The notes under the pieces: model-generated
Told to the model about the DNA's origin: nothing
The model's input: the letters and a program-made list of their open reading frames with translations, nothing else
Database searches by the model: none
Part shown: one piece after another, positions 23,289 to 58,257 of the stretch
Numbering within the stretch: position 1 is the first letter of the stretch
How the letters are laid out: every line of letters starts with the position of its first letter
Source of the DNA: Hyalangium gracile
GTDB taxonomy: Bacteria; Myxococcota; Myxococcia; Myxococcales; Myxococcaceae
Direction of reading: 5' to 3'
Length of the DNA stretch: 64,000 nt
NCBI RefSeq assembly: GCF_020103725.1
Contig: NZ_JAHXBG010000012.1
Location: 1 to 64,000 of the forward strand
Program-made: the position numbers and the translations under genes

Positions 23289-23317
23289 TTGACCCGGTGG
23301 GAGGCCGCGCGTATTTT
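23289..23317 (+). promoter_or_regulatory. Sigma-70-type promoter of the dcw operon
   Basis: TTGACC (23289-23294) and TATTTT (23312-23317) are 17 bases apart, close to the housekeeping consensus. The expected transcription start (about 23324) falls just before the MraZ operator, which would leave a leader of about 85 bases before mraZ. The 323 bp between the divergent lipoprotein gene and mraZ hold nothing else that I can identify. Confidence 0.6.
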
Positions 23318-23328
23318 CCGCGCCGAAG

Positions 23329-23353
23329 TGGCAAGGAGTGGGAAGCAGTGGCG
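23329..23353 (+). promoter_or_regulatory. Predicted MraZ operator, three direct repeats
   Basis: TGGCA (23329), TGGGA (23339) and TGGCG (23349) recur with exactly 10-bp spacing. MraZ of Escherichia coli binds direct TGGGN repeats separated by five bases in front of its own gene; this array matches in spacing and position. It predicts MraZ autoregulation of the cluster. Confidence 0.7.
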
Positions 23354-23407: not shown

Positions 23408-23857
23408 GTGTTCCGTGGCGTCTATGAGCACCAGATCGACGCGAAGGGGCGGACCAGCCTCCCGGCCAGGCTGCGGGAGACGCTGGTGGGCGCGTACGAC
23501 GAGCGCCTCATCCTCACCACCGCGCTGGATCCCTGCCTGCACGCCTATCCGGTGCGGGAGTGGGAGGCGCTCGAGACGGCGCTGGGCAAGCGCAACCCCA
23601 TGGAGCCAGGGGTGAAGACGCTGATGCGGCTCTACGTGGCCAGCGCCCAGGAGTGCCCGCTCGACAAGATGGGGCGTGTCCTCGTGCCGCCCTCGCTGCG
23701 CGCGCACGCGGCGCTGGAGAAGGAAGTGGTGTGGGTGGGGATGGTGAAGGTGATCGAGCTGTGGAGCCGCGCCGGCTGGGCCAAGGCCCAGGAGGACGCT
23801 CGCGCCGCGGCGGACTCGGCGGATGTCGCCCGCGTGCTCTCCGAGCTGCGGCAGTAG
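23408..23857 (+). CDS. mraZ: MraZ, transcriptional regulator of the division and cell-wall cluster
   Basis: The 149-residue protein has two MraZ/AbrB-like half domains: '[20 protein letters not shown]' at the N-terminus and '[20 protein letters not shown]' in the middle, each with the conserved D-x-K/M-G-R core. It is the first gene of the dcw cluster, as in most bacteria. MraZ forms ring-shaped oligomers and represses its own operon through direct repeats, which are present upstream. The GTG start has a GGGGAAG ribosome site. The product should therefore set the level of all genes up to ddl. Confidence 0.96.
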
Positions 23858-23904: not shown

Positions 23905-24288
23905 ATGAACCAGGTATCGGAGGCGAGGCGGGTTCTCACGTCGGTGGCGAGCACCGGCCGCGTGGAGACGCTGATGCTGGAGGGCGAGCTGGGCGAGCAG
24001 GCCCTGGCGCAGGTGTGCGAGGAGCTCGCCGGCCGGCTGCACCGGGGCGTGCGCCAGGTGGTGGTGGACTTCAGCGAGGTGGCGCACCTGGACTACCGCG
24101 GCGTGAAGCCGCTGATGGCGCGCGCCGAGGCCTTCCGCCGCGCCGGTGGGGACATCAAGCTTGCGGGCCTGTCGCCGTACCTGGCCGCCATCTTCCGGGC
24201 CGCCGGAGCGCACGACCGGTTCGAGATGTACCCGCATATGAACGATGCCCGGGCGGCCTTCGCCCTCATGCGGGCTCCCTTCGTCTAG
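23905..24288 (+). CDS. STAS-domain protein inserted between mraZ and rsmH
   Basis: The 127-residue protein is a single STAS domain: '[20 protein letters not shown]', '[20 protein letters not shown]' and '[20 protein letters not shown]'. In classical anti-sigma antagonists (SpoIIAA) the central motif is D-S-S-G with a phosphorylated serine; here it is D-Y-R-G, so the usual kinase switch cannot operate. It lies 47 bp after mraZ and 14 bp before rsmH on the same strand, hence in the operon. A scaffold or partner-binding role in division is possible, but unproven. The ATG has GGGGAGG six bases upstream. Confidence 0.85.
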
Positions 24289-24302: not shown

Positions 24303-25208
24303 TTGGCCTTCAGCCACCAGACCGTCCTCCTGGAAGAGACGGTGGAGCTGCTGCACCCCGGAGCGGGCAAGGTGATCGTCGACGGCACATTGGGGGGCGG
24401 TGGCCACACGGAGGCGCTCCTGGCTCGGGGCGCCACCGTCATTGGCGTGGACCGCGACCCGGTGGCGCTCGAGGCGGCCACGGCCCGGCTGGGGGCCAAC
24501 CCGCGCTTCCAGGCGCGCGCCGGCAACTTCGGCGAGCTGCCCCGGGTGGTGGCGGACGTGCTGCCGGTGGACGGGGTGCTGGTGGATCTGGGCGTGTCCT
24601 CTCCGCAGCTGGATGTGGCCGAGCGCGGCTTCTCCTTCATGAAGGACGGGCCGCTGGACATGCGCATGGGCGCCGAGGGGCGCACCGCCGCGGAGCTGAT
24701 CGCCGAGGAGGACGAGCGCGAGCTGGCCCGCATCATCTATGAGCTGGGCGAGGAGTCCTTCTCGCGGCCCATCGCCCGGGAGCTCAAGCGCGCCCTGCCC
24801 ACGCGCACGCTGGAGGCCGCCGAGGTGGTGAAGCGCGCGGTGCCTCGCAAGGCGTGGCCGAAGAAGATCCACGTGGCGACGAAGACTTTCCAGGCGCTGC
24901 GCATGGCCGTCAATGGCGAGCTGGAGGCGCTGGACGCGCTGCTCGGCGCGCTGCCCTCGCTGCTCAAGGTGGGCGGGCGCGCGGCCGTCATCGCGTTCCA
25001 CTCGCTCGAGGATCGCAAGGTGAAGGAGGCGTTCCGCGCGCTGGTGGGGCAGTGCCGTTGCCCGCCGGGCCTGCCGGTGTGCGCCTGTGGCGGCCAGGGC
25101 GACTTCGCCCCGGTGACGAAGAAGGCCGTCTCCGCCTCGGAAGCCGAGGTGGAGGCCAACCCCCGCTCTCGCAGCGCGCACCTGCGCGTGGTGGAGAAGA
25201 TCCGATGA
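24303..25208 (+). CDS. rsmH: RsmH (MraW), 16S rRNA N4-methylcytidine methyltransferase
   Basis: The enzyme methylates N4 of cytidine 1402 in 16S rRNA with S-adenosylmethionine. The 301-residue sequence begins [16 protein letters not shown] after a TTG start, which is the best-placed initiation codon. The SAM-binding motif '[17 protein letters not shown]' and the conserved '[14 protein letters not shown]' and '[17 protein letters not shown]' are all present. The order mraZ - rsmH - ftsL is standard apart from the STAS gene between the first two. It overlaps ftsL by 4 bp. Confidence 0.95.
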
Positions 25209-25603
25209 CCCAGGTGAGTCCGCGCAACAATGGAGTGTCGGTGGGCCGCGTGCTGCTGCACCTGCTGCCGGCGGTGCTGCTGGCCGCGCTCTTCGCGGCG
25301 GTGGGCATCCTCCACGTCACCAGCCGGGTGCTGGTGGTGGACATGGGCTACCGGCTGTCCAAGGCGGAGGCCGAGAGCCGCGGCCTGACGCGCGAGAATG
25401 ATCGGCTCAAGCTGGAGCTGGCCACGCTCCGGGCTCCGGCGCGCCTGGAGCGGCTGGCGCGCGAGCAGCTGGGGATGATGATGCCCCCGGGCTCGGCCGT
25501 GGTGGCGCTGCAGCCGGAGCTGCCGAGCGCGCGCCGCAACGGCAAGGCCGCGGCCCGCACGCCCGCGGGGGTTCGCGTGGCCGATCGGGAGAGCGCCCGG
25601 TGA
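25205..25603 (+). CDS. ftsL: FtsL-like divisome protein
   Basis: A 132-residue bitopic membrane protein: short cytoplasmic N-terminus, one transmembrane helix ('[20 protein letters not shown]', about residues 17-38), then a periplasmic coiled coil ('[20 protein letters not shown]'). This is the FtsL layout, which pairs with FtsB and FtsQ to control FtsWI activity. Sequence conservation of FtsL is low, so the call relies on topology and position between rsmH and ftsI, both overlapping it by 4 bp (ATGA and GTGA). The C-terminal 40 residues are polar and basic, a little longer than in the E. coli protein. Confidence 0.85.
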
Positions 25604-37858: not shown

Positions 37859-38799
37859 GCGTCCTGTCCAAGTCCGATCTGAAGAACAAGCGCGTGGGCG
37901 TGCTGATGGGTGGCCTGTCCGCGGAGCGCGACGTGTCGCTGCGCACCGGAGCCGCCGTGTCCAAGGCGCTGCGCTCTCTCGGCTACGACGTGGTGGAGAT
38001 CGACGTGGGCAAGGACATCGCCGCGCGCCTGGCCGCGGAGAAGGTGGATGTGGCGTGGATCGCCCTCCACGGCCGCTACGGCGAGGACGGCTCCATCCAG
38101 GGGCTGCTCGAGTCGCTCTTCATCCCCTACACCGGCAGCGGCGTGCTCGCCTCGGCGCTGGGCATGGAGAAGGTCTACGCCAAGCAGGTCTTCACCCACC
38201 ACGGCATCCCCACGCCTCCTTATAAGGTGTTCACCGACGCCGCGACCGCCCGCGCCGCCGTGGACTCGCTGCCCTTCCCGTTCCCCGTCGTCGTCAAGCC
38301 CAGCCGCGAGGGCAGCAGCGTGGGCGTCCACGTCTGCAAGACGAAGGAGGCCTACCTGGCCGCCGTGGACGACGCCTCGAAGTTCGCCGGCTTCCTCCTG
38401 GTGGAGCAGTTCATCAAGGGCCGCGAGGTGCAGGGCGCCGTGCTGGACAACGAGGCCCTGGGCGTCATCGAAGTCGTCGTCGCCCGCGAGTTCTACGACG
38501 CGGAGGCCAAGTACAAGGCCGGCAGCGGGACGAAGTACCTCTTCCCCGCGCCGCTGCCCGAGGCCCAGTACACCCGCGTCAACGAGGTGTGCCTGGCCGT
38601 CCACAAGGCGCTGGGGTGCTCCGGAGCGTCGCGCTCGGACGTCATCGCCACCGAGTCCGGGGACGTCTACGTTCTGGAAATCAACACCCTGCCAGGTATG
38701 ACGGAGACGAGCCTGCTGCCGAAGATCGCCGCCGGAAGGGGTATCGACTTCCCCGCCCTGTGCGAGCGCATCCTCCTGACGGCCTCGCTCAAGTCCTGA
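37855..38799 (+). CDS. ddl: D-alanine--D-alanine ligase
   Basis: ATP-grasp enzyme that makes the D-Ala-D-Ala dipeptide used by MurF. The 314-residue protein has 'RVGVLMGGLSAERDVSLRTG' at the N-terminus, 'WIALHGRYGEDGSIQGLLES', the ATP-grasp segment 'FPVVVKPSREGSSVGVHVCK' and 'VYVLEINTLPGMTETSLLPK' with metal ligands. It is the DdlB-type location inside the dcw cluster. The GTG start overlaps murB by 4 bp. A terminator begins at the last base of the stop codon, so ddl ends this operon. Confidence 0.95.
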   Translation: MSVLSKSDLKNKRVGVLMGGLSAERDVSLRTGAAVSKALRSLGYDVVEIDVGKDIAARLAAEKVDVAWIALHGRYGEDGSIQGLLESLFIPYTGSGVLASALGMEKVYAKQVFTHHGIPTPPYKVFTDAATARAAVDSLPFPFPVVVKPSREGSSVGVHVCKTKEAYLAAVDDASKFAGFLLVEQFIKGREVQGAVLDNEALGVIEVVVAREFYDAEAKYKAGSGTKYLFPAPLPEAQYTRVNEVCLAVHKALGCSGASRSDVIATESGDVYVLEINTLPGMTETSLLPKIAAGRGIDFPALCERILLTASLKS

Positions 38800-39783: not shown

Positions 39784-39827
39784 GGAACGCCCTTTCACGA
39801 GAGTGGGGGCACCGGGAGGCAGTGGTC

Positions 39828-41060
39828 ATGGCGAAGCAGAAGTCTGGGGAGATCATCGTCGGCCTCGACATCGGCACGACGAAGATCTGCGCGATCGTCG
39901 GTGAGCTCACCGACAGCGGGATCGACATCATCGGAATCGGCACCCACCCCTCCAAGGGGTTGCGCAAGGGCGTCGTGGTCAACATCGAGGCGACCGTGTC
40001 CTCCATCCGCCGGGCGGTGGAAGAGGCCGAGCTGATGGCGGGGGCGGAGATCTCCCACGTCTACACGGGCATCGCCGGAGGCCACATCAAGGGCTTCAAC
40101 TCCCAGGGCATCGTCGCGGTGAAGGACAAGGAGGTGCGCGAGGCGGACATCGCCCGCGTCATCGACGCCGCCAAGGCGGTGGCCATCCCGCTGGACCGGG
40201 AGGTCATCCACGTCCTGCCGCAGGAGTTCATCATCGACGACCAGGGCGGCATCAAGGAGCCGCTGGGCATGGCGGGCGTGCGGCTGGAGGCCAAGGTGCA
40301 CATCGTCACCGGCGCCGTCTCCAGCGCGCAGAACATCGTCAAGTGCGCCAACCGCACCGGGCTGAACGTCGCCGACATCGTCCTGCAGCCGCTGGCCTCC
40401 GCCGAGGCCGTGCTCAGCGACGACGAGAAGGAGCTGGGCGTGTGCCTGGTGGACATCGGCGGCGGCACCACGGACATCGCCATCTTCTCCGGCGGCGCCA
40501 TCGTCCACACCGCCGTCATCGCCCTGGGCGGCAACAACCTCACCAGCGACATCGCCATCGGCCTGCGCACCCCGGCGCACGAGGCCGAGCGCATCAAGCA
40601 GAAGTTCGGCTGCGCGCTCGCCTCCATGGTGAACAAGGACGAGACCATCGAGGTGCCCAGCGTGGGCGGCCGCCAGCCGCGCGTGCTCGGCCGGCAGATC
40701 CTCTGCGAGATCCTCGAGCCGCGCGTGGAGGAGATCTTCCAGCTCGTCCACCGGGAGATCCAGAAGTGCGGCTACGAGGACCTGCTCGCCTCGGGCGTCG
40801 TCATCACCGGCGGCTCCACGCTGCTGGCGGGCATGCCCGAGCTGGCCGAGGAGGTGCTCGGACTGCCCGTGCGGCGCGGTATGCCTCGCGGTATCGGTGG
40901 CCTGGTGGACGTGGTGAAGAGCCCCATGTACGCCACCGGCGTGGGCTTGGTCGTCTACGGCGCTCGCCACCTCGACCGGCGAATGTTCCGGATTCGCGAA
41001 GAGAACGTGTACAAGAAAGTGAAAGGCCGGATGCGCGAGTGGCTGGAGGAAATTTTCTAG
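39828..41060 (+). CDS. ftsA: FtsA, actin-like membrane tether of the Z ring
   Basis: The 410-residue protein carries actin-fold phosphate motifs 'IIVGLDIGTTKICAIVGEL' and 'VCLVDIGGGTTDIAIFSGG', an SHS2/1C domain between them, 'GVVITGGSTLLAGMPELAEE', and a short amphipathic C-terminal helix (MREWLEEIF) that binds the membrane. It recruits FtsZ and late divisome proteins. The ATG has a GGGAGG site. A strong terminator follows at 41093. In most bacteria ftsZ is next; here a 15-kb gene intervenes. Confidence 0.96.
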   Translation: MAKQKSGEIIVGLDIGTTKICAIVGELTDSGIDIIGIGTHPSKGLRKGVVVNIEATVSSIRRAVEEAELMAGAEISHVYTGIAGGHIKGFNSQGIVAVKDKEVREADIARVIDAAKAVAIPLDREVIHVLPQEFIIDDQGGIKEPLGMAGVRLEAKVHIVTGAVSSAQNIVKCANRTGLNVADIVLQPLASAEAVLSDDEKELGVCLVDIGGGTTDIAIFSGGAIVHTAVIALGGNNLTSDIAIGLRTPAHEAERIKQKFGCALASMVNKDETIEVPSVGGRQPRVLGRQILCEILEPRVEEIFQLVHREIQKCGYEDLLASGVVITGGSTLLAGMPELAEEVLGLPVRRGMPRGIGGLVDVVKSPMYATGVGLVVYGARHLDRRMFRIREENVYKKVKGRMREWLEEIF

Positions 41061-41225: not shown

Positions 41226-44200
41226 ATGAGGCCGCTCCCCGGAGTGGCCCCGTCCCGGTCCGGAACATCCACCATGATGGGTTCCTCTTCGTCCTCTTTG
41301 TGCTCCGTGAACGCTCGCTTGCTGATGCCCCTGCTCCTGATGGGAGTGATGGGAGTCGGCTGCGGCCCGGAGTCGCTGAACGCTCCCGAGACTTCTCCCG
41401 AGCCATCCACCGTTCCGCAGCAGCTGGTCGCTCCGCGCGAGCAGCCGAGCAAGGCTGACTGGATGGTGGAGCCCGACGCGCACGTGTCGTGGATGATGGC
41501 CGACAGCGCGAACCTGCAGCTGTTCCTCGCGGACTCGGCCGATCCGATCGCGGAGCTGTCCTCGGTCACCTACTCGATCGACGTGGTGAACCTGGGGCCC
41601 AACGCGGCGGCCGACGTCGCGGTGGCGATCACCCTGCCCACCCAGGCCTTCTTCCAGTCGTTCGATCCGGCGGGCTTCGCCTGTAGCCCGAACGCCAATG
41701 TGTGGACGTGCCGGCTCTTCACGCCGTGGGCGGTGAACCAGCCGGCGACCATCAAGTTCACCATGCAGGCGCCCAACCAGGATGACATCCTGCTGCAGGC
41801 GAGCGCCACCATCTCCTCGACGACGGCGGACCCCACGCCGGGCAACAACTCGGATGCGGAGGAGACGGTCATCGGCATCAACGACGCGCCGTCGATCACC
41901 GCGCCCATCCCGGTGCCGCCGCAGACGGCCCCCGAGGACACCGACATCATCTTCTCGGCGGCCAACGGCAACCGCATCGCCCTGGCGGACCCGGACGTCT
42001 TCAACCGCAAGCTCAACCTGACCCTGGACATCACGGGCGGCGCGGTCCGCGGCTCGCTGTCGCTCAGCCAGACCACGGGGCTGACCTTCATCAAGGGTGA
42101 CGGCTCGTTCGACTCGTCCATGCAGTTCGAAGGCACGCTCGCCAACATGAACGCCGCCCTGAACGGGCTGCGCTTCACCCCGGCGCCCAACTACTACGGA
42201 GAGACGGGCATCATCCTGTTGGTCAACGACCTGGGCAACAGCGGCCTCCAGGGGATCAAGGCGGTCTCCCGCATCGTCCCCATCAGCGTCTCGCCCGAGG
42301 TCAATGACCCGCCGGACGCGGTGGACGACAACTACGCGGTGCCGGGTGATGCCGTGGCCTACGCGCTGGACGTGCTGGCCAACGACACGTACCTGCCGGA
42401 TCCGCCCGAGACCCTGACGATTACCGCCGTCACCCAGCCGGCCAATGGCTCGGTGACCTTCACCCCGACCGGGGTGAGCTTCACTCCGACCGCCGGCTTC
42501 CGAGGCACCACGACGTTCACGTACACGATCTCGGATGGGCACGGGCTCTTCGACACGGCCACGGTGACGTGCGTCGTCGGACAGCCGAACAACCCGCCCA
42601 CGGCCGCCAACGACAGCTACACCGTGGCCGAGGACAGCGGCGCCACGAACATGTTCGTGCTGGCCAACGACAGCACGGCGCCGGACGCCAATGAGACGCT
42701 GACCATCACCGCGCTGACGCAGCCGGCGGGGGGCACGGTGACGCACTCGAACGGCATCGTCCAGTTCACGCCGACGCCCAACTTCTTCGGCACCACGACG
42801 TTCACCTACACGATCTCGGACGGTCGAGGCGGCACGGCGACGGGCACGGTGACGGTGACGGTGACGGGCTCGAATGATCCTCCGACGGCCAACGCCGACA
42901 CCTTCGTGGTGCAGGAGGACACCCCCACGCCGCTGGATGTGCTGGCCAACGACTCGAGCGCGCCGGACGGCCCGGAGGCGCTGACCCTCACGGGGGTGAC
43001 CCAGCCGACCAACGGCACGGCGACCATCACCGGCGCCACCGTGCTGTTCACGCCCGCCGCGGAGTTCAGCGGGAGCACGACGTTCACCTATACGATCTCG
43101 GATGGCACGGCGACGGCCACGGCCACGGTGACGGTGAACGTGGCGCCGGTGAACGACCCGCCGGTGGCCAACCCGGACAGCTTCACGGTGGCCGAGGACA
43201 GCGCGGCCACGCCGCTCAACGTGCTGGCCAACGACAACTCCGGGCCGGAGACGGGCGAGACGCTGACCATCACCGGCGTGACGCAGCCGACGGCGGGCGG
43301 CTCGGTGACCTTCACGGCCACGAGCGTGAGCTTTACGCCGACGGGCAACTTCTTCGGCACGGCGACGTTCACGTACACGCTCTCGGACGGCAATGGCGGC
43401 ACGGCGACGGGCACGGTGACGGTGACGGTGACCGGGACGAACGACCCGCCGGATGCCGTCGAGGACAGCTTCATGGTGGGTGCCAACACCAGCGGCACGG
43501 TGCTGGACGTGCTGGCCAACGACACGAGCGCGCCGGACGGTCCGGAGACGCTGACGATCACCGCCACCACGCAGCCGGCCAACGGCACGGTGACGCGTAC
43601 GCCCACCAACGTCAGCTTCACTCCCACGGCGAACTTCCGTGGGACGACGACGTTCCAGTACACGATCTCCGACGGCAACGGCGGCACCGACACGGCCACC
43701 GTCACGGTGGTGGTGGGCAACAACCCGCCGGTGGCCACCGCAGACAGCTTCACGGTGAACGAGGACAGCGGGTTCACCGATCTGAACGTGCTGGCCAATG
43801 ACAACACGGCGCCGGACACGGGCGAGACGCTGAGCCTCATTGGCGTGACCCAGCCCGCCAATGGCCAGGTCACCTTCGACACGAACATCGCCAGGTTCAG
43901 GCCCGCGAACAACTTCCACGGCACCACGACGTTCACGTACACGGTGTCGGACGGCAGCGGCGGCACGGCGACGGCCACGGTGACGGTGACGGTGACGCCG
44001 GTGAACGATCCGCCGGTCGCGGTGAACGACAGCTTCACCGTGCCCCGGAACAGCGGGGCGACGGTGCTGAACGTGCTGGCCAACGACACGTTCGCGCCGG
44101 ACACGGGCGAGACGCTCACCGTCGCGACCGTGACCCAGCCGGCCACGGGCGGTACGGTGACTCTCAACGCGGGCGTGGTGAGCTTCACCCCGACGACCAA

Positions 44201-47200
44201 CTTCACGGGGACCGTGACGTTCCAGTACACGGTGTCGGACGGCAACGGCGGCACGGCGACGGGCACGGTGACGGTGGTGGTGGAGCAGGTGAACGCGCCG
44301 CCCAACGCTGTGGACGACACCTTCACGGTGGCCGAGGACAGCTCGGTCACGACGTTCGACGTGCTGGCCAACGACTCGATCGCCCCGGACACGGGCGAGA
44401 CGCTGACCGTCACCGCGGCGACCCAGCCGGCCACGGGCGGCACGGTGACCTTCAACACCTCCAACGTGCGCTTCACCCCGACGGCCAACTTCAACGGGAC
44501 GGCGACGTTCCAGTACACGGTGTCGGACGGCAACGGCGGCACCGACACGGCGACGGTGACGGTGACGGTGACGCCGGTGAACGACCCGCCGGACGCGGTG
44601 AACGACACCTTCTCGGTGGCCGAGAGCAGCTCGAACAACCCGCTGGACGTGCTGCTCAACGACACCACGGCGCCGGACACGGGCGAGACGCTCACGGTGG
44701 CCTCCGTCACGCAGCCGGCCAGCGGCACGGTGACGCTCACCGGCGGGGTGGTGCGCTACACGCCGCCCGCGGGCTTCAACGGCACCGTGACGTTCACCTA
44801 CACGGTGTCCGACGGCAACAGCGGCACGGACACGGCGACGGTGGCGGTGACGGTGACGCCGGTGAACGATCCGCCGACGGCCAACAACGACAGCTTCGCG
44901 GTGGCCGAGGACAGCGGCGCCACGCCGCTCAACGTGCTGGCCAACGACAGCACGGCGCCGGACACCGGTGAGACGCTGACCATCACCTCCGTCACCCAGC
45001 CGGCCAACGGCACGGTGACGTTCGCGGCCTCCAACGTCACCTTCACGCCGGCCCCCAACTTCAACGGCACCACGACGTTCCAGTACACGGTGTCGGATGG
45101 CAACGGCGGCACGGCCACCGCCACGGTCACCGTCACGGTCGACCCGGTGAACGACCCGCCGACGGCCGTCAACGACGCGCTCACCGTGGCCGAGGACAGC
45201 GGCGCCACGGTGGTGACCGTGCTGAGCAACGACTCGAGCACGCCGGACACGGGCGAGACGCTCACGGTGACGGCGGTGACCCAGCCGGCCAACGGCACGG
45301 TGACGCTCACCGCGGGCGTGGTGCGCTTCACGCCGGCCCCCAACTTCAACGGGACGACGACGTTCCAGTACACGGTGTCCGACGGCAACGGCGGCACGGC
45401 GACGGCCACGGTGACGGTGACGGTGACGCCGACGAACGATCCTCCCGACGCGCTGGACGATGCCTTCACGGTGGCCGAGGACAGCGGCGCCACGACGCTG
45501 GACGTGCTGGCCAACGACTCCATCAACGGGGACGTGGGCGAGACGCTCACGGTGACGGCGGTGACCCAGCCGGCCAACGGCACGGTGACGCTCACCGCGG
45601 GCGTGGTGCGCTACACGCCGCCCTCCAACTTCAGCGGCACCACGACGTTCACGTACACGATCTCGGATGGCAACAGCGGCACGGACACGGCGACCGTCAC
45701 GGTGACGGTGACGCCGGCGAACGATCCGCCCGACGCGGTGGACGACACGGCCACGGTGGCCGAGGACAGCGGCCCCACGGCGCTGGACGTGCTGACCAAC
45801 GACACCACGGCGCCGGACACCGGCGAGACGCTGGCCATCACCTCCACCACCCAGCCGCTCAACGGCTCGACGACGTTCACCTCCACCCAGGTGCGCTTCA
45901 CGCCGGCGGCCAACTTCTTCGGCACCACGACGTTCCAGTACACGGTGTCCGACGGCAACGGCGGCTCCGACACGGCGACCGTCACGGTGACGGTGACGCC
46001 GGTCAACGACGCGCCCTCGGCCAACGATGACACCTTCACGGTGGCGGAGGACAGCGGCGCCACGTCGCTCAACGTGCTGGCCAACGACTCGTTCGCGCCG
46101 GATGCGGCGGAGACGCTGACCATCTCCGCCATCGTGACCCAGCCGACGGGCGGGACGGTGACCAACACCCCCACGAGCGTGAGCTTCACGCCCGACGCCA
46201 ACTTCACCGGCACCACGACGTTCTCGTACCGGATCTCGGATGGGAATGGCGGCACCGACACGGCGACCGTCACGGTCACGGTCTCCCCGGTCAACGATCC
46301 GCCCGACGCGGTCAACGACGCCGTCACGGTGGCCGAGGACAGCAGCGCCACGGTCGTGAACGTGCTGGCCAATGACAGCACGGCGCCGGACACCGGCGAG
46401 ACGCTGACCATCACCTCCGTCACCCAGCCGGCCAACGGCACGGTGACGAACACGCCGACGAACGTGAGCTTCACGCCGGCGGCGAACTTCAACGGCACCA
46501 CGACGTTCCAGTACACGGTGTCGGACGGCAATGGTGGCTCCGACACGGCGACCGTCACGGTGACGGTGACGCCGGTGAACGACAACCCGACGGCCAACGC
46601 CGACACCTTCACGGTGGCCGAGAACAGCGGCCCCTCCCCGCTGGCCGTGCTGGCCAACGACACGGCCGTGCCGGACACGGGCGAGACGCTCACGGTGACG
46701 GGTGTCACCCAGCCGACCACGGGCGGCACGACGTCCTTCTCGGCGGCGGGAGTGACCTTCACCCCCACGCCTGGCTTCGTGGGGCTCGCGACGTTCCAGT
46801 ACACGATCTCCGATGGCAACGGCGGCACGGCGACGGCCACCGTCACGGTGAACGTCAGCAACTCGAACGATCCGCCGACGGCCAACGACGACGCCTTCAC
46901 GGTGGCCGAGGACAGCGGCCCCACGCCGATGAGCGTGCTGGCCAACGACACGACGCTGCCGGACACCAGCGAGACGCTGACGATCGTCTCCGTCACCCAG
47001 CCGGCCAGCGGCACGGTGACCTTCACGGCCACCGAGCTCACCTTCACGCCCGCGCTCAACTTCAACGGCACCGTGACGTTCTCGTACACGGTGGACGACG
47101 GCAACGGCGCGACGGACACGGCGCAGGTGACGGTGACGGTGACGCCGGTCAACGATCCGCCCACGGCCGGCAATGACGCCTTCACGGTGGGCGAGGACAG

Positions 47201-50200
47201 CGCCGCCACGGTGTTCAACGTGCTGGCCAACGACTCGACGGCGCCCGAGCTGTCCGAGACGCTGACGATCGCCTCCACCACCCAGCCGGCCAACGGCACG
47301 GTGACGAGCACGCCCACGAGCGTGAGCTTCACGCCGGCGCCCAACTTCAGTGGCACCACGTCGTTCCAGTACACGGTGGACGACGGCAACGGCGGCACGG
47401 CGACGGCCACCGTCACGGTGACGGTGACGCCGGTGAACGACCCGCCGGACGCGGTGAACGACACCTTCGTGGTGCAGGAGAACAGCTCGGACACCCCGCT
47501 GGACGTGCTGGCCAACGACACGACGACGCCGGACACGGGCGAGACGCTCACGGTGGCCTCCGTCACGCAGCCGGCCAGCGGCACGGTGACGCTCACCGGT
47601 GGAGTGGTGCGCTACACGCCGCCCGCGGGCTTCAACGGCACCGTGACGTTCACCTACGAGGTGTCGGACGGCAATGGTGGCTTCGACACGGCGACGGTGG
47701 TGGTGACGGTGACGGCGGTGAACGATCCGCCGACGGCCGCGGACGACAGCTTCACGGTGGCCGAGGACAGCCAGGACAACGCGCTGGACGTGCTGGCCAA
47801 CGACACCACGGCGCCCGACACGGGTGAGACGTTGACCATCACCGCCGTGACGCAGCCGGCCAGCGGCACGGTGAGCTTCACGGCCTCCGGCGTGAGCTTC
47901 ACGCCCGTGGCGGACTTCAACGGCACCGTGACGTTCCAGTACACGGTGTCGGATGGCAACGGCGGCACGGACACGGCGACCGTCACGGTGACGGTGACGC
48001 CGGCGAACGATGCGCCCACGGCCGTGGACGACAGCTTCACGGTGGCAGAGGACAGCGGCGCCACGGTGTTCGACGTGCTGGCCAACGACTCGTTCGCTCC
48101 GGACACGGGCGAGACGCTGACGATCACCTCGGTGACGCAGCCCGCGGCCGGCGCGGTGACCTTCACCGCGTCCAACATCAGCTTCACGCCGGCGCCGAAC
48201 TTCAACGGCACCACGTCGTTCACGTACCGGCTCCTCGACGGCAACGGGGGCTCCGACTCGGCGACGGTGACGGTGACGGTGACGCCCGCGAACGATGCGC
48301 CCACGGCGAACGACGACGGCTTCATCGTCGCCGAGGACAGCGGTGCCTCGGAGCTGGACGTGCTCTTCAACGACAGCTCGGCGCCGGACGACAGTGAGAC
48401 GCTCACGGTGACGTCGGTGACGCAGGCGCTCGAGGGCACGGTGACGCTCACCGGCGGGGTGGTGCGCTTCACGCCGGCGCCCAACTTCTTCGGCACCACG
48501 TCGTTCACCTACACGGTGTCCGACGGCAATGGCGGCACCGACACGGCGACGGTGGTGATGACGGTGACGCCGGTGAACGACAACCCGACGGCCAACAACG
48601 ACAGCTTCCTGGTGGCCAAGGACAGCCCGGCCCAGGCGCTGGACGTGCTGGTCAACGACTCGGCCGTGCCGGACGTGGGCGAGACGCTCGTCATCACCTC
48701 GGTGACGCAGCCGGCCAGCGGCGGCACGGTGAGCTTCACGGGCTCCAGCGTCAGCTTCACGCCGACGGCCGGCTTCGAGGGCATCGTGACGTTCACGTAC
48801 ACGATCTCCGACGGCAACGGCGGCTCGGCGTCCGCGACGGTGACGGTCAACGTCGGCAGCGCGAACCGCCCGCCGACGGCCAACGACGACAGCTACACGG
48901 TGGCCGAGGACAGCGGCGACACGGTGCTGGATGTGCTGGCCAACGACAGCACGGCGCCGGACACGGGCGAGACGCTCACGGTGACGGCCGTCACGCAGCC
49001 GGCCAGCGGCACGGTGACGGTGTCTCCGGCCAGCGTCACCTTCAGGCCCGCGGCCAACTTCAACGGCACCGTGAGCTTCTCCTACACGGTCTCGGATGGG
49101 AACGGCGGCTCCGACACGGCGACGGTGACGGTGGTGGTGACGCCGGTGAACGACAACCCGACGGCCACGGATGACAGCTTCACGGTGGCCGAGGACAGCG
49201 TCGCCACGGTGCTCGACGTGCTGACCAATGACAGGGCGGCGCCGGACACGGGCGAGACGCTCACGGTGACGGCCGTCACGCAGCCGACCAACGGCACGGT
49301 GACGCTCACCAGCGGGGTGGTGCGCTTCACGCCCGCGGCCAACTTCAGCGGCACCACGACGTTCCAGTACACGGTGTCGGACGGCAATGGCGGCACGGCG
49401 ACGGCGACCGTCACGGTGACGGTGACGCCGGCGAACGATGCGCCCACGGCCGTCAACGACGCCATCACGGTGGCCGAGGACAGCAGCGCCACCGTGGTGG
49501 ACGTGCTGGCCAACGACTCGTTCGCGCCGGATGTGGGCGAGACGCTGACGGTGGTGTCCGTCACCCAGCCGGCCAATGGCACGGCGACGCTCACCGGTGG
49601 GGTGGTGAGCTTCACGCCCGCGCCCGACTTCTTCGGCACGACGACGTTCCGGTACACGGTGTCGGACGGCAGCGGCGGCACGGCCACGGCCACCGTCACG
49701 GTGACGGTGACGCCGGTGAACGACAACCCGACGGCCAACGCCGACAGCTTCACGGTGGCGGTGGACAGCCCGGCCACTGCGCTGGACGTGCTGTTCAACG
49801 ACTCCAGCGCGCCGGACGTGGGTGAGACGCTCACGGTGACGGCCGTCACGCAGCCGGCCAATGGCACGGTGACGCTCACCGGCGGGGTGGTGCGCTTCGC
49901 TCCGGCCGCCGGCTTCTCCGGGACCACGACGTTCACCTACACGGTGTCCGACGGCAATGGCGGCACGGCCACGGGCACGGTCACCGTCACCGTCACGGGC
50001 AGCAACAGGCCTCCGACGGCGGTGGACGACGCCTTCACGGTGGCCGAGGACAGCGCCGCCACGTCGTTCGACGTGCTGGCCAACGACTCGTTCGCGCCGG
50101 ACGTGGGCGAGACGCTGACGGTGACGGCGGTGACGCAGACGACGGGCGGCTCGGTGACCTTCACGGCCTCCGAGGTGCGCTTCACGCCTGCGCCGAACTT

Positions 50201-53200
50201 CAACGGCACGACGACGTTCCGGTACACGGTGTCGGACGGCAACGGTGGCACGGCCACGGCGGCCGTCACGGTGACGGTGACGCCGGTGAACGACAACCCG
50301 ACGGCCGGCGACGACAGCTTCACGGTGGCCGAGGACAGCGGCGGCACGGTGTTCGACGTGCTGGCCAATGACTCGAGCGCGCCGGACACGGGCGAGACGC
50401 TGACGGTGACGGCGGTGACCCAGCCGACGGGCGGCTCGGTGACGCTCAGCGCGGGCGTGGTGCGCTTCACGCCGGCGGCCAACTTCAACGGCACCGCGAC
50501 GTTCCAGTACACGGTGTCGGATGGCAATGGCGGGACGAGCACGGCCACGGTGACGGTGGTGGTGACGCCGGTGAACGACCCGCCCAACGCGGTGGACGAC
50601 TTCACCTCGATGCCCGAGGACTACCCGCTCACGCTGGTGGGCGTGCAGGTCAACGACACCACGTCGCCGGACACGGGCGAGACGCTGACCATCACCGCGG
50701 TGACCCAGCCGGCCAACGGCACGGTGACGCTCACCAACGGCCTGGTCCGCTTCTCTCCGACGCCCAACTTCTTCGGCACCACGACGTTCACGTACACCAT
50801 CTCCGACGGCAACGGCGGCACGGACACGGCGACGGTGCACATGACGGTGACGCCGGTGAACGACCCGCCGACGGTCGTGGACGACAGCTTCCTGGTCGCG
50901 GTGAACAGCTCGGCCACGGAACTGGACGTGCTCATCAACGACACGTACCTGCCGGACGCGCCCGAGACGCTCACCCTCACGGCGGTGACGCAGCCGATCA
51001 ATGGCTCGGTGACGCTCATCGGCGGGGTGGTGCGCTTCACGCCGATGCCGGACTTCAGCGGCACCACGTCCTTCCAGTACACGGTGTCCGACGGCAATGG
51101 CGGCACGGCGACTGGCACGGTCACCGTGACGGTCTCCGGGACCAACAACCCGCCGGATGCGGTGGACGACACCTTCACGGTGGACGAGGACAGCAGCGCC
51201 ACGGTGCTCAACGTGCTGGCCAACGACACGACGACGCCGGACACGGGCGAGACGCTCACGGTGGTGTCCGTCACGCAGCCCGCCAACGGCGCGGTGACGC
51301 TCAACGCGGGCGTGGTGAGCTTCACGCCGGCGCCGAACTTCAACGGCACCACGACGTTCCAGTACACGGTGTCCGACGGTCGCGGTGGCACGAATGCCGG
51401 CCGCGTCACCGTCAACGTCACGCCGGTCAATGATCCTCCGGACGCGGTGGACGACAGCTTCGTGGTGGCGGTGAACAGCCCGGCCCGGGCGCTCGACGTG
51501 CTGTCCAACGACACGATTGCGCCGGACACGGGTGAGACGCTGACGGTGACGGCGGTGACTCAGCCGGCCAACGGCACGGTGACGCTCACGGGCGGCGTGG
51601 TGAGCTTCACGCCGGCCGCGGGCTTCACGGGTACCACGACGTTCACGTACACCGTCTCCGACGGCAACGGTGGCACGGACACGGCCACGGTGACGGTGAC
51701 GATCGCCGGGGCCAATCCTCCGCCGACGGCCAACGACGACAGCTTCGCGGTGGCGAAGAACAGCCCGGCCCAGGTGCTCAACGTGCTGGCCAACGACACC
51801 ACGGCGCCGGACACGGGTGAGACGCTGACGGTCATTGCGGTGACCCAGCCGGCCATCGGCGGCACGGTGACGCTCTCGGGTGGGGTGGTGAGCTTCACGC
51901 CCGCGACGGACTTCCTGGGTACGACGGTGTTCACGTACACCATCTCCGACGGCAACGGCGGCACGGACACCGCCACGGTGACGATCACGGTCGGCGAGCC
52001 GAACAACCCGCCGAACGCGGTGGACGACACCTTCACGGTGGACGAGGACAGCGGGCCGACGACGCTCACCGTGCTGGCCAACGACACGACGGCGCCGGAC
52101 ACGGGCGAGACGCTCACGGTGACGGCGGTGACCCAGCCGCTCAACGGCCTGGTGACGCTCACCGGCGGCGTGGTGCGGTTCTCGCCGGCGGCCAACTTCA
52201 ACGGCACCACGACGTTCCAGTACACGGTGTCCGACGGTCGCGGTGGCAACGACACGGCGACGGTGACCGTGACGGTGACGCCGGTGAACGATCCTCCGGA
52301 CGCGGTGAACGACACGTACACGGTGCTCGCGGACGGCGGAGCCCAGGTGCTCAACGTGCTGCTCAACGACACGTTCGCGCCGGACACGGGCGAGACGCTG
52401 ACGGTGACGGCGGTGACGCAGCCGGCCACGGGCGGCACGGTGACGCTCACCGGCGGCGTGGTGAGCTTCACGCCGGCCGCGGGCTACACGGGCACCACGA
52501 CGTTCACGTACACCCTCTCCGACGGCAACGGCGGCACGGACACGGCCACGGTGACCGTGAACGTGAGCAACACGGCGAACAACCCGCCGAACGCGGTGGA
52601 CGACACCTTCACGGTGGATGAGGACAGCAGCGGCAACATCCTGGCCGTGCTGGCCAACGACACGTTCGCGCCGGACACGGGCGAGACGCTGACGGTGATC
52701 TCGGTGACCCAGCCGGCCACGGGCGGCTCGGTGACGCTCAACGCGGGCGTGGTGCGGTTCACGCCCACGGCCGACTTCAACGGCACCGTGACGTTCCAGT
52801 ACACGATCTCCGACGGCAACGGCGGCGACGACACGGCCACGGTGACCGTGACGGTGGCGCCGGTGAACGATCAGCCCAACGCGGTGAACGACACGTACAC
52901 GGTGCTCAGGGACAGCGGGGCGACGGTGCTGGACGTGCTGGCCAACGACACGTTCACGCCGGACACGAACGAGACGCTGACGGTGACGGCGGTGACCCAG
53001 CCGGCCAATGGCACGGTGGCGCTCGCCGGCGGCGTGGTGAGCTTCACGCCGGCGCCCAGCTTCTTCGGCACCACGACGTTCACGTACACCATCTCCGATG
53101 GTAACGGCGGCAGCGACACGGCCACGGTGACCGTGATCGTGAACGACACGCAGAACAACCCGCCGGATGCGGTGGCCGATACCTTCACGGTGGCCGAGGA

Positions 53201-56200
53201 CAGCGGGGCCACGGTGCTGGACGTGCTGGCCAACGACACGTTCGCTCCGGACACGGGCGAGACGCTGACGGTGGTGAACGTGACCCAGCCGGCCACGGGG
53301 GGCACGGTGACGCTCGACGCGGCGGGCGTGGTGAGCTTCACCCCGGCGCTCAACTTCTTCGGCACCGTGACGTTCGACTACATCATCTCCGACGGCCGTG
53401 GCGGTAACGACACGGCGACGGTGACGGTGACGGTGACGCCGGTGAACGACGACCCGACGGCCAACGATGACACCTTCACGGTCCTCACCGACAGCTCGGC
53501 GAATGTGCTCGACGTACTGCTCAACGACACGATCGCGCCGGACACGGGCGAGACGCTGATGATCACCTCCACCACCCAGCCGGCCAGTGGCACGGTGACC
53601 CATACGAGCACGAACGTCAGCTTCACGCCGGCGGCGGGCTTCACCGGCACCGTGACGTTCGACTACACCATCTCGGACGGCAACGGTGGCAGCGACACGG
53701 CCACGGTGACCGTGATCGTCAGCGACACGCCGAACAACCCGCCGGATGCGGTGGCCGACACCTTCACAGTGGCCGAGGACAGCGGGGCCACGGTGCTGGA
53801 CGTGCTGGCCAACGACAGCACCGAGCCGGACACGGGCGAGACGCTGTCGGTGGTGAACGTGACGCAGCCGACCAACGGCACGGTGACGCTCACCGGTGGC
53901 GTGGTGCGGTTCACGCCGGCGCCGAACTTCAACGGCACCACGACGTTCCAGTACACGGCCTCCGACGGCCGTGGTGGCACGGACACGGCGACGGTGACGG
54001 TGACGGTGACGCCGGTGAACGACGACCCGACGGCCAACGACGACACCTTCACGGTGCTCGCCAACAGCGGGGCCAACGTGCTCGACGTGCTCGTCAACGA
54101 CACGTTCACGCCGGACACGGGCGAGACGCTGACGGTGACGGCGGTGACGCAGCCGGCCACGGGCGGCACGGTGACGCTCACCGGCGGCGTGGTGAGCTTC
54201 ACGCCGGCCACGGACTTCATCGGCACCGCGACGTTCACGTACACCCTCTCCGACGGCAACGGTGGCAGCGACACGGCCACCGTGACCGTGAACGTGGGCG
54301 AGAACCCGAACAACCCGCCGGACGCGGTGGATGATGCCTTCACGGTCGTGGAGAACAGCGGGGCCACGGTGCTCAACGTGCTGGCCAATGACACGTCCGC
54401 TCCGGACGTGGGCGAGACGCTGACGGTCGTGGCGGTGACCCAGCCCGCGACGGGCGGCACGGTGACGCTCACGGGCGGCGTGGTGAGCTTCACGCCGGCC
54501 ACGGACTTCGCGGGCACCGCGACGTTCACGTACACCATCTCCGACGGCAGGGGTGGTAACGACACGGCCACGGTGACGGTCACCGTGACCAAGGCCCCGG
54601 ATGTCGACACCGACGGCGATGGCCTGACCGATGAGCAGGAGGCCGAGCTCGGCACCGACCCGAACGATCGCGACACCGACAACGGCGGCGTGGAGGACGG
54701 CGCCGAGGTCGCCGGCGGTACCAACCCGCTGGACGACACCGACGACTTCCTCGTCGGCGGCAGTGGCTGCGCCTCCACGGGCACCACCAGCCTGATGCCG
54801 CTGCTGCTGCTGCTCGGCCTGCCGCTGCTGCGGCGGCGCCATGCGGCGGTGGGCTCGCACCCGGCTTCTCGAGCCGGCGTGTGGGGCGTGCTGGCCGTCC
54901 TCGTGGCGGCTCCGGCGAAGGCCCAGTCCGACATCGTCACCAGCCCCACGTCCGAGAAGATCGACGTGCAGCAGTACAAGCCGGCCCCTGGTGCCTACGA
55001 CGTGCTGGGCCTCCACAGTCCGAGGGTAGCCCGGAACTTCGAGTGGAACCTGGGCGTGTCGGTCAACTACGCGAAGGACCCGCTCACCTTTCTCGACCCC
55101 CGCCAGGACAACAAGGCCGTCTACAAGCTGGTGGAGAGCCAGCTCACCGTGGACCTGATGGGTGCCATCGCCCTGTTCGACCGGTTCGAGCTGGGCCTGG
55201 CGCTGCCCATCACCTCGCAGACCTCCCAGTCGTCGCCAGAGGTGGCGCCGGCCTTCGAGGAAGGCGTGGGGAAGACCGGCCTCGGAGACCTGCGCGTGAT
55301 TCCCAAGGCGAGCCTGTACTCCTCGGGCGGTCTGAGCGTGGGCGCCGCGCTGCCCATCCACCTGCCCACCGGCGGGTCCACGGGCTTCCTCGGGGGCGGG
55401 TTCTCCGTCCGCCCGAGGGTGCTCGGTGAGTGGAGCAGCAGCGGGGGAGTTCGCGTGCTGGCCAACGTGGGCCTCAACCTCCGCTCCAAGCAACAGCTGC
55501 GCAACCTGGTCGTCTCCAACGAGCTGGCCTACGGCATCGGCGCGGAGGTGCCCTTCAGCGTGGCCGGCAGCGAGCTGTCCGCGGGCGGCACGCTGATGGG
55601 CGCGATGGGGCTCGGCGAGTCGGGCTCCGAGGAGAAGCCGATGGAGTTCCTGGCCACGCTGAAGTACCGCGTCTCGGAGGCCTTCTCGGCGCACCTGGGC
55701 GGTGGCCCGGGCATCGGGCAGGGCTACGGCACGCCGGGCTTCCGCGTGTTCGCGGGCATCGCCTACGCGCCGTCCGACCGCGGCACCGAGTCTCGGCCGA
55801 CGCCCGTGGCCACCCCCGCGCCGATCAAGCCCTCCAAGCCCGTGCCCGAGCAGCTGGTGGACACGGACGGGGACGGCCTGCCGGACGTGCAGGACCGCTG
55901 CCCGATCGCCGCCGAGGACAAGGACAGCTTCCAGGACGACGACGGCTGCCCGGACCCGGACAACGACAACGACACCCTGGCGGACGCCAGCGACAAGTGC
56001 CCCAACGAGCCGGAGACGAAGAACGCCTTCGAGGACGAGGACGGCTGCCCGGACCAGGCGCCGCCGCCGCCGCCCGTGGACACCGACGGAGACCTCCTCA
56101 CGGACGACAAGGACCGCTGCCCACAGGAGGCCGAGGACAAGGACGGCTTCCAGGACGAGGACGGCTGCCCGGACCCGGACAACGACCGGGACGGCGTGGC

Positions 56201-56681: not shown

Positions 56682-56985
56682 GCCTCACCGGGCGGCATGT
56701 CAGACCCCTGATCGACACTGCCGCTCGTGACCGTCCTGCGGTCCGCGCCTCGGGGTGGATCTCCGGAGCGCGACCGCCAGGGCGGTCATGCGGTGCCGCG
56801 TGAGCGCGGGACAAAATCCGGATCGCGAGTCAAGGTCCGACAAGGCCACATCCCGCGACACGGAATGGATGTTCAGGCCGCCGCGTAAGTGCCTGTCAGG
56901 ACTTGGGGGAACCGAGGCCTGCTACAGGCAGGTAGCGGAATACTTGCCAAAGATCTCGACTTGCTGATGATGGGTGACCTTGGGG

Positions 56986-57009
56986 ACTCGCACCAAAAGG
57001 TGCGTGAGT
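56986..57009 (+). promoter_or_regulatory. Leader hairpin upstream of ftsZ
   Basis: ACTCGCACC pairs with GGTGCGTGAGT around an AAAA loop, with a two-base bulge. It ends six bases before the GAAAGGA ribosome site of ftsZ, so it could modulate translation. The remaining part of the 346-bp gap (56682-57027) is GC-rich and presumably holds the ftsZ promoter; I could not identify a convincing -35/-10 pair. Confidence 0.4.
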
Positions 57010-57027
57010 TCCGCTGAAAGGATCACC

Positions 57028-58257
57028 ATGGACCAGTTCGAGCAGAACAAGCAGGCCGCGAAGATCCGTGTTGTCGGCGTGGGTGGAGCCGGCTGCAACG
57101 CGGTGAACACGATGATCCTGGCCAAGCTGGAACGGGTCGACTTCATTGCTGCGAACACCGACGTGCAGGCGCTCGCCGCCAACAAGTCTCCGACGCGGCT
57201 GCAGCTCGGACAGACGCTGACCAAGGGCCTGGGCGCGGGCGCCAACCCGGAGATGGGCCGCGAGGCGGCGCTCGAGTCCAAGGAGCAGATCGCCGCGGTG
57301 CTCGAGGGCGCGGACATGGTGTTCGTCACCGCGGGCATGGGCGGTGGCACCGGCACGGGCGCCGCGCCCATCATCGCGGACATCGCCAAGAGCCTGGGCT
57401 GCCTCACGGTGGGCGTGGTGACCAAGCCCTTCCTCTTCGAGGGCAACAAGCGCCGCAAGCAGGCCGAGCAGGGCCTGGTGGAGCTCAAGGCCGCGGTGGA
57501 CACGCTCATCACCATCCCCAACCAGCGGCTGCTCACCCTGAGCACCGAGCCCATGCCGCTGCTGGAGACCTTCAAGCGCGCCGACGAGGTGCTCCTCAAC
57601 GCCGTGCAGGGCATCTCGGACCTCATCCAGTACCACGGCTACATCAACGTGGACTTCGCGGACGTGAAGACCATCATGAGCGACAAGGGCCTGGCGCTCA
57701 TGGGCACCGGCCGCGCCTCGGGCACCTCGCGCGCCCTGTCCGCCATGCAGCAGGCCATCTCCAGCCCGCTGCTGGAGGACATCTCCATCGACGGCGCCAC
57801 GGGCCTGCTCATCAACATCACCGGCGGCCGGGACATGACGCTGCAGGAAGTCAACGAGGCCCTCACGCTGGTGCACGACGCGGCCGACAGCGAGGCGGAG
57901 ATCATCTTCGGCTCGCTCATCGACGAGCAGATCCAGGACGAGGTGAAGATCACCATCATCGCCACCGGCTTCGTGCACCGCGACACCCGGCAGCCCCAGC
58001 GCGTGGTGGCGGTGCCGGCCACCCCGGTGCCGCTCGTCAGCCGCCCCGCGCCGTCGGTGCTGTCCGCCGCCCGCGAGGAGGTGGCCAGCCTGGTGCCCTC
58101 CAAGGCCGGTGCGCGCGCCATGTCCTCCACGGAGAACAAGGCGGTGACGACTCCGCCGCGCACCGCGGTGGTGAAGGACGCGGCGCTGCCCCTGGACGAG
58201 GATCAGTTCGACATCCCCACCTTCCTGCGCCGGCAGGGCCAGACCGAGATGCCCTGA
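57028..58257 (+). CDS. ftsZ: FtsZ, tubulin-like cell division GTPase
   Basis: Forms the Z ring. The 409-residue protein has '[18 protein letters not shown]' at the N-terminus, the tubulin signature [10 protein letters not shown], and the T7-loop region '[17 protein letters not shown]' with catalytic aspartate. A variable linker of about 70 residues ends in the conserved peptide '[10 protein letters not shown]' that binds FtsA and other partners. The ATG at 57028 has GAAAGGA at six bases; an upstream in-frame start would add 18 unusual residues. The gene has its own 346-bp leader and terminator, so it is expressed separately from ftsA. Confidence 0.97.

Follow-up and report, generated by a model that had tools for sequence, protein, structure and literature searches.

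The closest described relatives of the protein considered here are the single-domain STAS proteins SpoIIAA and RsbV (PF01740, TIGR00377), which carry a phosphorylatable Ser/Thr in a D-[ST]-[SA]-G motif where helix 2 begins. This end of helix 2, together with the corresponding end of helix 3, lies on the side by which SpoIIAA-type proteins contact their kinases. Several STAS-only proteins have already been placed outside sigma control, namely MlaB (YrbB), the STAS subunit of MlaFEDB, SypA (PMC4517449) and VapS (PMC13373217). According to PMC4517449, the Vibrio protein SypA consists of a single STAS domain, shows no evidence of a sigma-factor role and retains a phosphorylated serine (S56). For CapS and VapS, PMC13373217 likewise describes a STAS domain that is used beyond sigma control, with the switch face of VapS buried against its toxin. 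In both proteins a Ser/Thr is absolutely conserved, and CapS contains a wHTH domain as well; their genes are described beside immune or toxin genes rather than in a dcw operon. The STAS protein of Hyalangium gracile that is the subject of this analysis is encoded in the dcw operon. It shares the single-domain build and the motif position with SpoIIAA and RsbV, but lacks the phosphorylatable residue, has an Asp within the motif that is not conserved among its homologs, and is not adjoined by a kinase gene. It equally differs from the stressosome protein RsbS, with which its model matches best together with SpoIIAA, as it has no switch serine and is flanked by mraZ and rsmH rather than by genes for RsbR and RsbT. 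Like MlaB it is a small STAS protein; however, MlaB ranks low in its match lists and no Mla genes adjoin it. It differs from SypA, CapS and VapS in the absence of the conserved serine or threonine.

The gene content of the dcw operon is generally regarded as almost invariable. In the window, i.e. the whole stretch of 64,000 nucleotides that was analyzed, the operon contains an additional gene (23905..24288, + strand) with an ATG start preceded by GGGGAGG, and on the basis of Pfam matches, a predicted model and a fold search its product of 127 aa was identified as a STAS-only protein. Upstream lies mraZ (23408..23857, +, GTG start; PF02381, 106.9 bits; NF001482, 188.6 bits against a cut-off of 168), which we take from its known family to encode the repressor of the operon. 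Downstream follow rsmH, also known as mraW (24303..25208, +, TTG start; PF01795, 326.4 bits; TIGR00006, 297.4 bits against a cut-off of 154.3), and ftsL (25205..25603, +; TIGR02209, 43.7 bits against a cut-off of 42.45). The gene is separated from mraZ by 47 nt and its stop codon from rsmH by 14 nt. After rsmH, family matches yielded the order ftsL, ftsI, murE, murF, mraY, murD, ftsW, murG, murC, murB, ftsQ and ftsA, where the individual mur genes were named on basis of both domain and gene order. Because it is set between mraZ and the series rsmH-ftsL...ftsA, the STAS gene belongs to the dcw operon, which is ordinary in all other respects. The initial annotation had a STAS gene separating mraZ from rsmH, and this was confirmed by both Pfam STAS models (see below) and by the MraZ (NF001482) and RsmH (TIGR00006) matches of the flanking genes.

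Among the genomes of the window's order (Myxococcales), rsmH was recovered in 144, and all but one of these (143 of 144) have the STAS gene next to it in the same orientation. This bears out the conservation in relatives on which the initial annotation had made its proposal depend. The sample comprised 145 genomes, including one that is 85% complete (G134) and showed neither rsmH nor the STAS gene. The junction sequence was read in 110 genomes, 108 of which had the STAS ORF beside rsmH, while in one (G023) the end of the gene fell in a run of N and in another (G020) the gene was absent. The other 34 were placed by the coordinates of the STAS and rsmH matches, which follow each other at a distance of 19-133 nt. 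A search with one STAS sequence by itself listed 137 of the 145 genomes; the diverged members that it missed, or matched elsewhere, were recovered by reading the junction or with a query from family f3. In G020 (L055, 1744-1804; a genome of 3.0 Mb that is 66% complete) mraZ directly abuts rsmH, and considering this combination of mraZ and rsmH without a STAS gene, the gene does not appear to be strictly required. A single-protein search of the named collection returned 26 records with the gene, all from close relatives; the closest named homolog is that of Hyalangium versicolor (85% identity), and that of Myxococcus xanthus shares 73% identity. A record under the name Comamonas sp. KCTC 72670 (L140), which is probably mislabelled or mixed, contains a dcw STAS gene resembling that of Myxococcus (71% identity).

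In the Myxococcota outside the order the situation is different, as 36 of 40 genomes with a usable rsmH have no STAS gene beside it. These 40 were the ones included in the tree, out of a sample of 50 from which six lacked an rsmH match and two (G174, G177) were left out; in another two that are not in the tree (G176, G184) the junction was inspected and no STAS gene was found. In 34 of the 36 STAS-less genomes a distance of 5-206 nt separates the stop codon of mraZ from the rsmH match, which is too short to accommodate the gene; the two excepted from this figure are L174 and L176, the latter of which has no mraZ. How rarely this junction is interrupted was examined within the Myxococcota, with the above 36 of 40 genomes outside the order as the result. 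The four outside genomes with a STAS gene beside rsmH were G163, G165, G166 and G167, the first of which is the sole usable genome of the window's class outside the order. When mapped onto a 96-row RsmH tree, the presence of the STAS gene requires 4 changes, compared to a mean of 29.8 after shuffling, and the order forms one group of 56 rows (support 87), with 55 STAS-positive rows and one loss. This fits a single insertion before the ancestor of the order, on a tree that was rooted at the midpoint and with counts that cannot separate gain from loss; the reading covers the order, and the four outside cases may share this origin or have another. The additional dcw member was apparently inherited from the ancestor of the order.

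The presence or absence of mraZ bears on the question whether the STAS protein acts through the repressor. A promoter-like site (TTGACC-17 nt-TATTTT; 23289..23317, +), which is a match to the consensus only, precedes the operon and is followed by MraZ-box-like repeats, with three TGG in 10-nt steps (23329..23353, +). Judged from their pattern, these repeats are likely the MraZ operator, and they resemble the AAAGTG[T/G] direct repeats that are reported for Mollicutes in PMC8475190. Of the 58 mraZ-bearing loci of the family, 38 have the three-repeat pattern upstream of mraZ and 20 lack it. The fact that the two genes adjoin each other within one operon, with such repeats upstream, could suggest that the STAS protein binds the repressor and thereby tunes dcw transcription. 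Among the 110 read genomes, however, mraZ is located upstream of the STAS gene in 107 and missing in three (G073, G074 and G075; L163, L164 and L165, genus code g7), which have no MraZ match, yet keep a near-identical promoter block around 240 nt upstream of the STAS start, the STAS gene itself and rsmH. In these three the dcw repressor has been lost naturally. The lack of the three-repeat operator in them says little, since 20 of the 58 mraZ-bearing loci lack the pattern as well. MraZ can be ruled out as an obligate partner on basis of the three genomes that retain the STAS gene without it, and a role of the STAS protein as co-regulator of MraZ must be regarded as very improbable.

To the Pfam models the assignment of the protein is clear, as it scored 50.5 bits with PF13466 (cut-off 29.2) and 46.5 bits with PF01740 (cut-off 22.6), and thus passed both curated cut-offs. 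All 27 members of the dcw STAS alignment (A1) matched STAS models at E <= 0.01, and out of 10 diverged members that were scanned, 7 were above a Pfam cut-off and three (L048 and L063 of family f3, and L073 of family f5) just under. The similarity to SpoIIAA was recovered by phmmer with an E-value of 2e-4. The NCBIfam cut-offs of the more specific families were all missed: 33.3 versus 53.45 bits for TIGR00377, 26.7 versus 114.75 bits for TIGR02886 (spore_II_AA) and 19.4 versus 90 bits for NF033618 (mlaB). AlphaFold2, run with 27 sequences, yielded a model with a mean pLDDT of 84.7, and blocks at 91-96 for residues 21-120. The predicted fold is that of a STAS domain, with RsbS (Z 16.5, rmsd 1.6 over 113 residues, 18% identity) and SpoIIAA (Z 16.3) as top matches, tied within 1. 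This closeness to RsbS and SpoIIAA could point to a constitutive anti-sigma antagonist, which would bind a SpoIIAB/RsbW-type kinase, could not be switched off and would feed a sigma factor at any time when the dcw operon is expressed. The genome indeed contains many HATPase_c_2 matches, the best of which is found on contig C38 (101 bits), with another on contig C4 (47.6 bits). These two contigs, however, carry STAS genes of their own, with the motifs VDSSG and VDT. Of 204 HATPase_c_2 candidates 150 were scored, and the 82 matches listed from these include none on C12, the contig of the dcw STAS gene. The neighbors of the dcw STAS gene are mraZ, rsmH and ftsL, and not a kinase or sigma factor gene; both NCBIfam anti-sigma-antagonist cut-offs were missed, the motif Asp is present in only 56 of 116 distinct sequences, and a bulky Tyr has taken the place of the serine. 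We consider such an antagonist unlikely, and the sigma-pathway input that was initially suggested is not supported by the gene neighborhood, by the family cut-offs, or by the location of the canonical partner-switch pairs of STAS and HATPase_c_2 on C38 and C4. On C4 (204500-209500; L205) two STAS genes are followed by two HATPase_c_2 matches, an arrangement that resembles an RsbR/RsbS/RsbT/RsbX-type cluster.

Another possibility outside sigma control is that the protein serves, like MlaB, as the STAS subunit of an MlaE/MlaF lipid transporter that is encoded elsewhere. The genome has two MlaE loci, on contigs C24 and C20, and no STAS match was listed on either contig, with 150 of 294 candidates scored. 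Within 1.5 kb of these loci no STAS gene was recovered with a dcw-STAS profile that is narrow and barely sees the STAS gene on contig C30. MlaB itself is a STAS protein that acts outside sigma control. Nevertheless, the mlaB model reached only 19.4 of the 90 bits mentioned above, and the dcw STAS gene is missing from 36 of the 40 Myxococcota genomes outside the order, so that we attach hardly any probability to this function.

The alignment with SpoIIAA places D63-Y64-R65-G66 on the D-S-S-G sequence, and thereby Tyr64 in the column of the phosphorylated serine. The altered motif H61-L62-D63-Y64-R65-G66 is encoded by 24085..24102 (+), and Y92, a tyrosine that hardly varies and with which the following helix of the predicted model begins, by 24178..24180 (+). 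Conservation was counted in 116 distinct sequences among 141 rows, over a core that corresponds to window residues 18-120; the 34 genomes placed by coordinates are outside this alignment, save those with a named record of the same genome. In column 64 we found Tyr 104 times, Phe 6, Arg 2, and Cys, Gly, His and Ser once each, and Thr not at all. Column 63, that of the motif Asp, holds D in 56, N in 33, H in 21 and another residue in 6 sequences, and is therefore unconserved, while H61 (115/116), Y92 (113/116) and D55 (115/116) are nearly invariant. The replacement of D-S-S-G by D-Y-R-G, as originally proposed, is thus supported with respect to the tyrosine, and not family-wide with respect to the Asp. 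Considering that H61, Y64 and Y92 are kept and the Asp is not, the motif is better written as H-[LV]-x-Y-x-G, followed by another tyrosine 28 residues further along. The exceptions are an f5 member without H61, Y64 and an aligned Y92, two f19 members without Y64 and Y92, and three f2 members that have C, G or S at position 64. In family f3 (L048-L071) the STAS protein is only around 100 aa long and several helix 2 residues are missing in the alignment. The 20 distinct f3 sequences nevertheless have H61 and Y92 in all cases and Y64 in 18, with F in the other two, despite the shorter aligned helix 2. At the five other places in the genome where a STAS sequence was found, the switch column contained no tyrosine (VDTR, VDTF, VDSS, VDHT and KDTA).

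The position of Tyr64, exactly at the switch site in 104 of the 116 sequences, raises the question whether the tyrosine has replaced the serine as the phosphorylated residue, so that the protein would still be a switch, operated by a bacterial tyrosine kinase. BY-kinases are present in myxobacteria, although they usually target tyrosine-rich tails, and the occurrence of Phe in 6 and other residues in a further 6 sequences speaks against a phosphorylation site. We therefore judge a tyrosine switch to be rather unlikely. A different alternative, in which the protein itself would matter little, is that the gene is a passenger or leader that mainly sets the spacing or the translational coupling of rsmH. 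The 14-nt gap to rsmH in the window and the single loss of the gene (G020) are in line with this. So is the rate of evolution, for which the comparison with H. versicolor yielded a dN/dS of 0.30 (dN 0.096, dS 0.319), looser than that of mraZ (about 0.035) and ftsI (0.21). The same value, however, signifies purifying selection, meaning that amino-acid changes are selected against, and H61 and Y92 are near-invariant between families; the passenger role is consequently a doubtful explanation as well.

Our preferred reading, to which we assign a probability of roughly 40%, is that the dcw STAS protein is an ancestral, order-wide member of the operon that lost its serine switch and acts as a constitutive protein-binding adaptor. 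In the model, helix 2 comprises residues 64-79 and helix 3 residues 91-99, so that Y64 and Y92 are predicted to lie at helix starts, and presumably close to each other in space. Together with H61 they would form a binding face where helices 2 and 3 begin, which is also the face by which SpoIIAA-type proteins meet their kinases, and since there is no serine to phosphorylate this face would always be 'on'. PMC13373217 provides a precedent in the VapS-VapC pair, where the STAS switch face is buried in a partner that is not a kinase. The fixed-state STAS scaffold that had been proposed earlier is in agreement with this as far as sequence goes, considering that position 64 holds a Ser in only one of 116 sequences and that the substituted face is conserved.

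With lesser weight, we suggest that the partner of such an adaptor might be the product of a neighboring gene, i.e. RsmH or an early division or cell-wall protein, or a factor that acts on these. It is by location that we lean towards RsmH or another neighboring dcw product, as genomes that lack mraZ still have the STAS gene next to rsmH. The adaptor would then set the activity or the assembly of its partner in fixed proportion to the expression of the operon. A more specific version, which we regard as a long shot, is that via its tyrosine face the protein physically links RsmH (16S rRNA methylation, and hence translation) or the early assembly of the divisome to dcw expression, maybe with tyrosine phosphorylation as a switch in place of that of the serine. 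If true, this link would add a regulator to one of the most conserved bacterial operons. The suggested tie to cell division, for its part, stands with respect to the membership of the dcw operon and the long retention of the gene, and reaches as far as these two. FtsW was considered as a partner on basis of rate covariation and rejected, as the partial correlation of 0.557 that was obtained from pairwise distances in 29 species fell to 0.057 when calculated over 75 branches of a fixed tree of 39 species. The branch-wise values with murG (0.34) and rsmH (0.18 Pearson, 0.33 Spearman) revealed no stable partner among the proteins compared, and the highest pairs that do not involve the STAS protein reach 0.47-0.56. 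Since the FtsW signal vanished by branch and other pairs scored as high, rate covariation was dismissed as evidence for a partner.

Among the matches listed in a search of the open-licence literature, no paper described a STAS gene that separates mraZ from rsmH, nor a myxobacterial dcw STAS protein, and as far as that literature is concerned an order-wide dcw STAS member with a tyrosine fixed in the place of the serine looks new. It means that almost every genome examined of the order, including that of the model organism Myxococcus xanthus, has one extra member in its dcw operon. It also shows that a STAS protein can be retained for long after the loss of its serine switch, with a tyrosine fixed instead.

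Two further ORFs were observed in the dcw stretch of the window. Between murB and ftsQ lies an ORF of 263 aa (37910-38698, +) that has no Pfam match at E 1e-5 and a phmmer match within the dcw stretch of 17 out of 40 relatives. Between ftsA (39816-41060) and ftsZ (56974-58257) there is a giant ORF of 5151 aa (41226-56681, +), the product of which contains numerous Big_9/cadherin-like repeats in tandem and, at its C-terminus, an OmpA domain. A homolog of 2568 to 5105 aa was present in five of the seven core-family genomes that were followed past ftsA (L248, L249, L251, L252 and L254); that of L254 measures 3642 aa and is open to the edge, and ftsZ was found behind the homolog in four of the five. 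In L250 the match is limited to 96 aa and the 20 kb of sequence that was followed contains no ftsZ; L253 has no homolog, and ftsZ is located around 4.6 kb behind ftsA. In 17 relatives in which both genes were seen, the gap between ftsA and ftsZ measures 13-178 nt.
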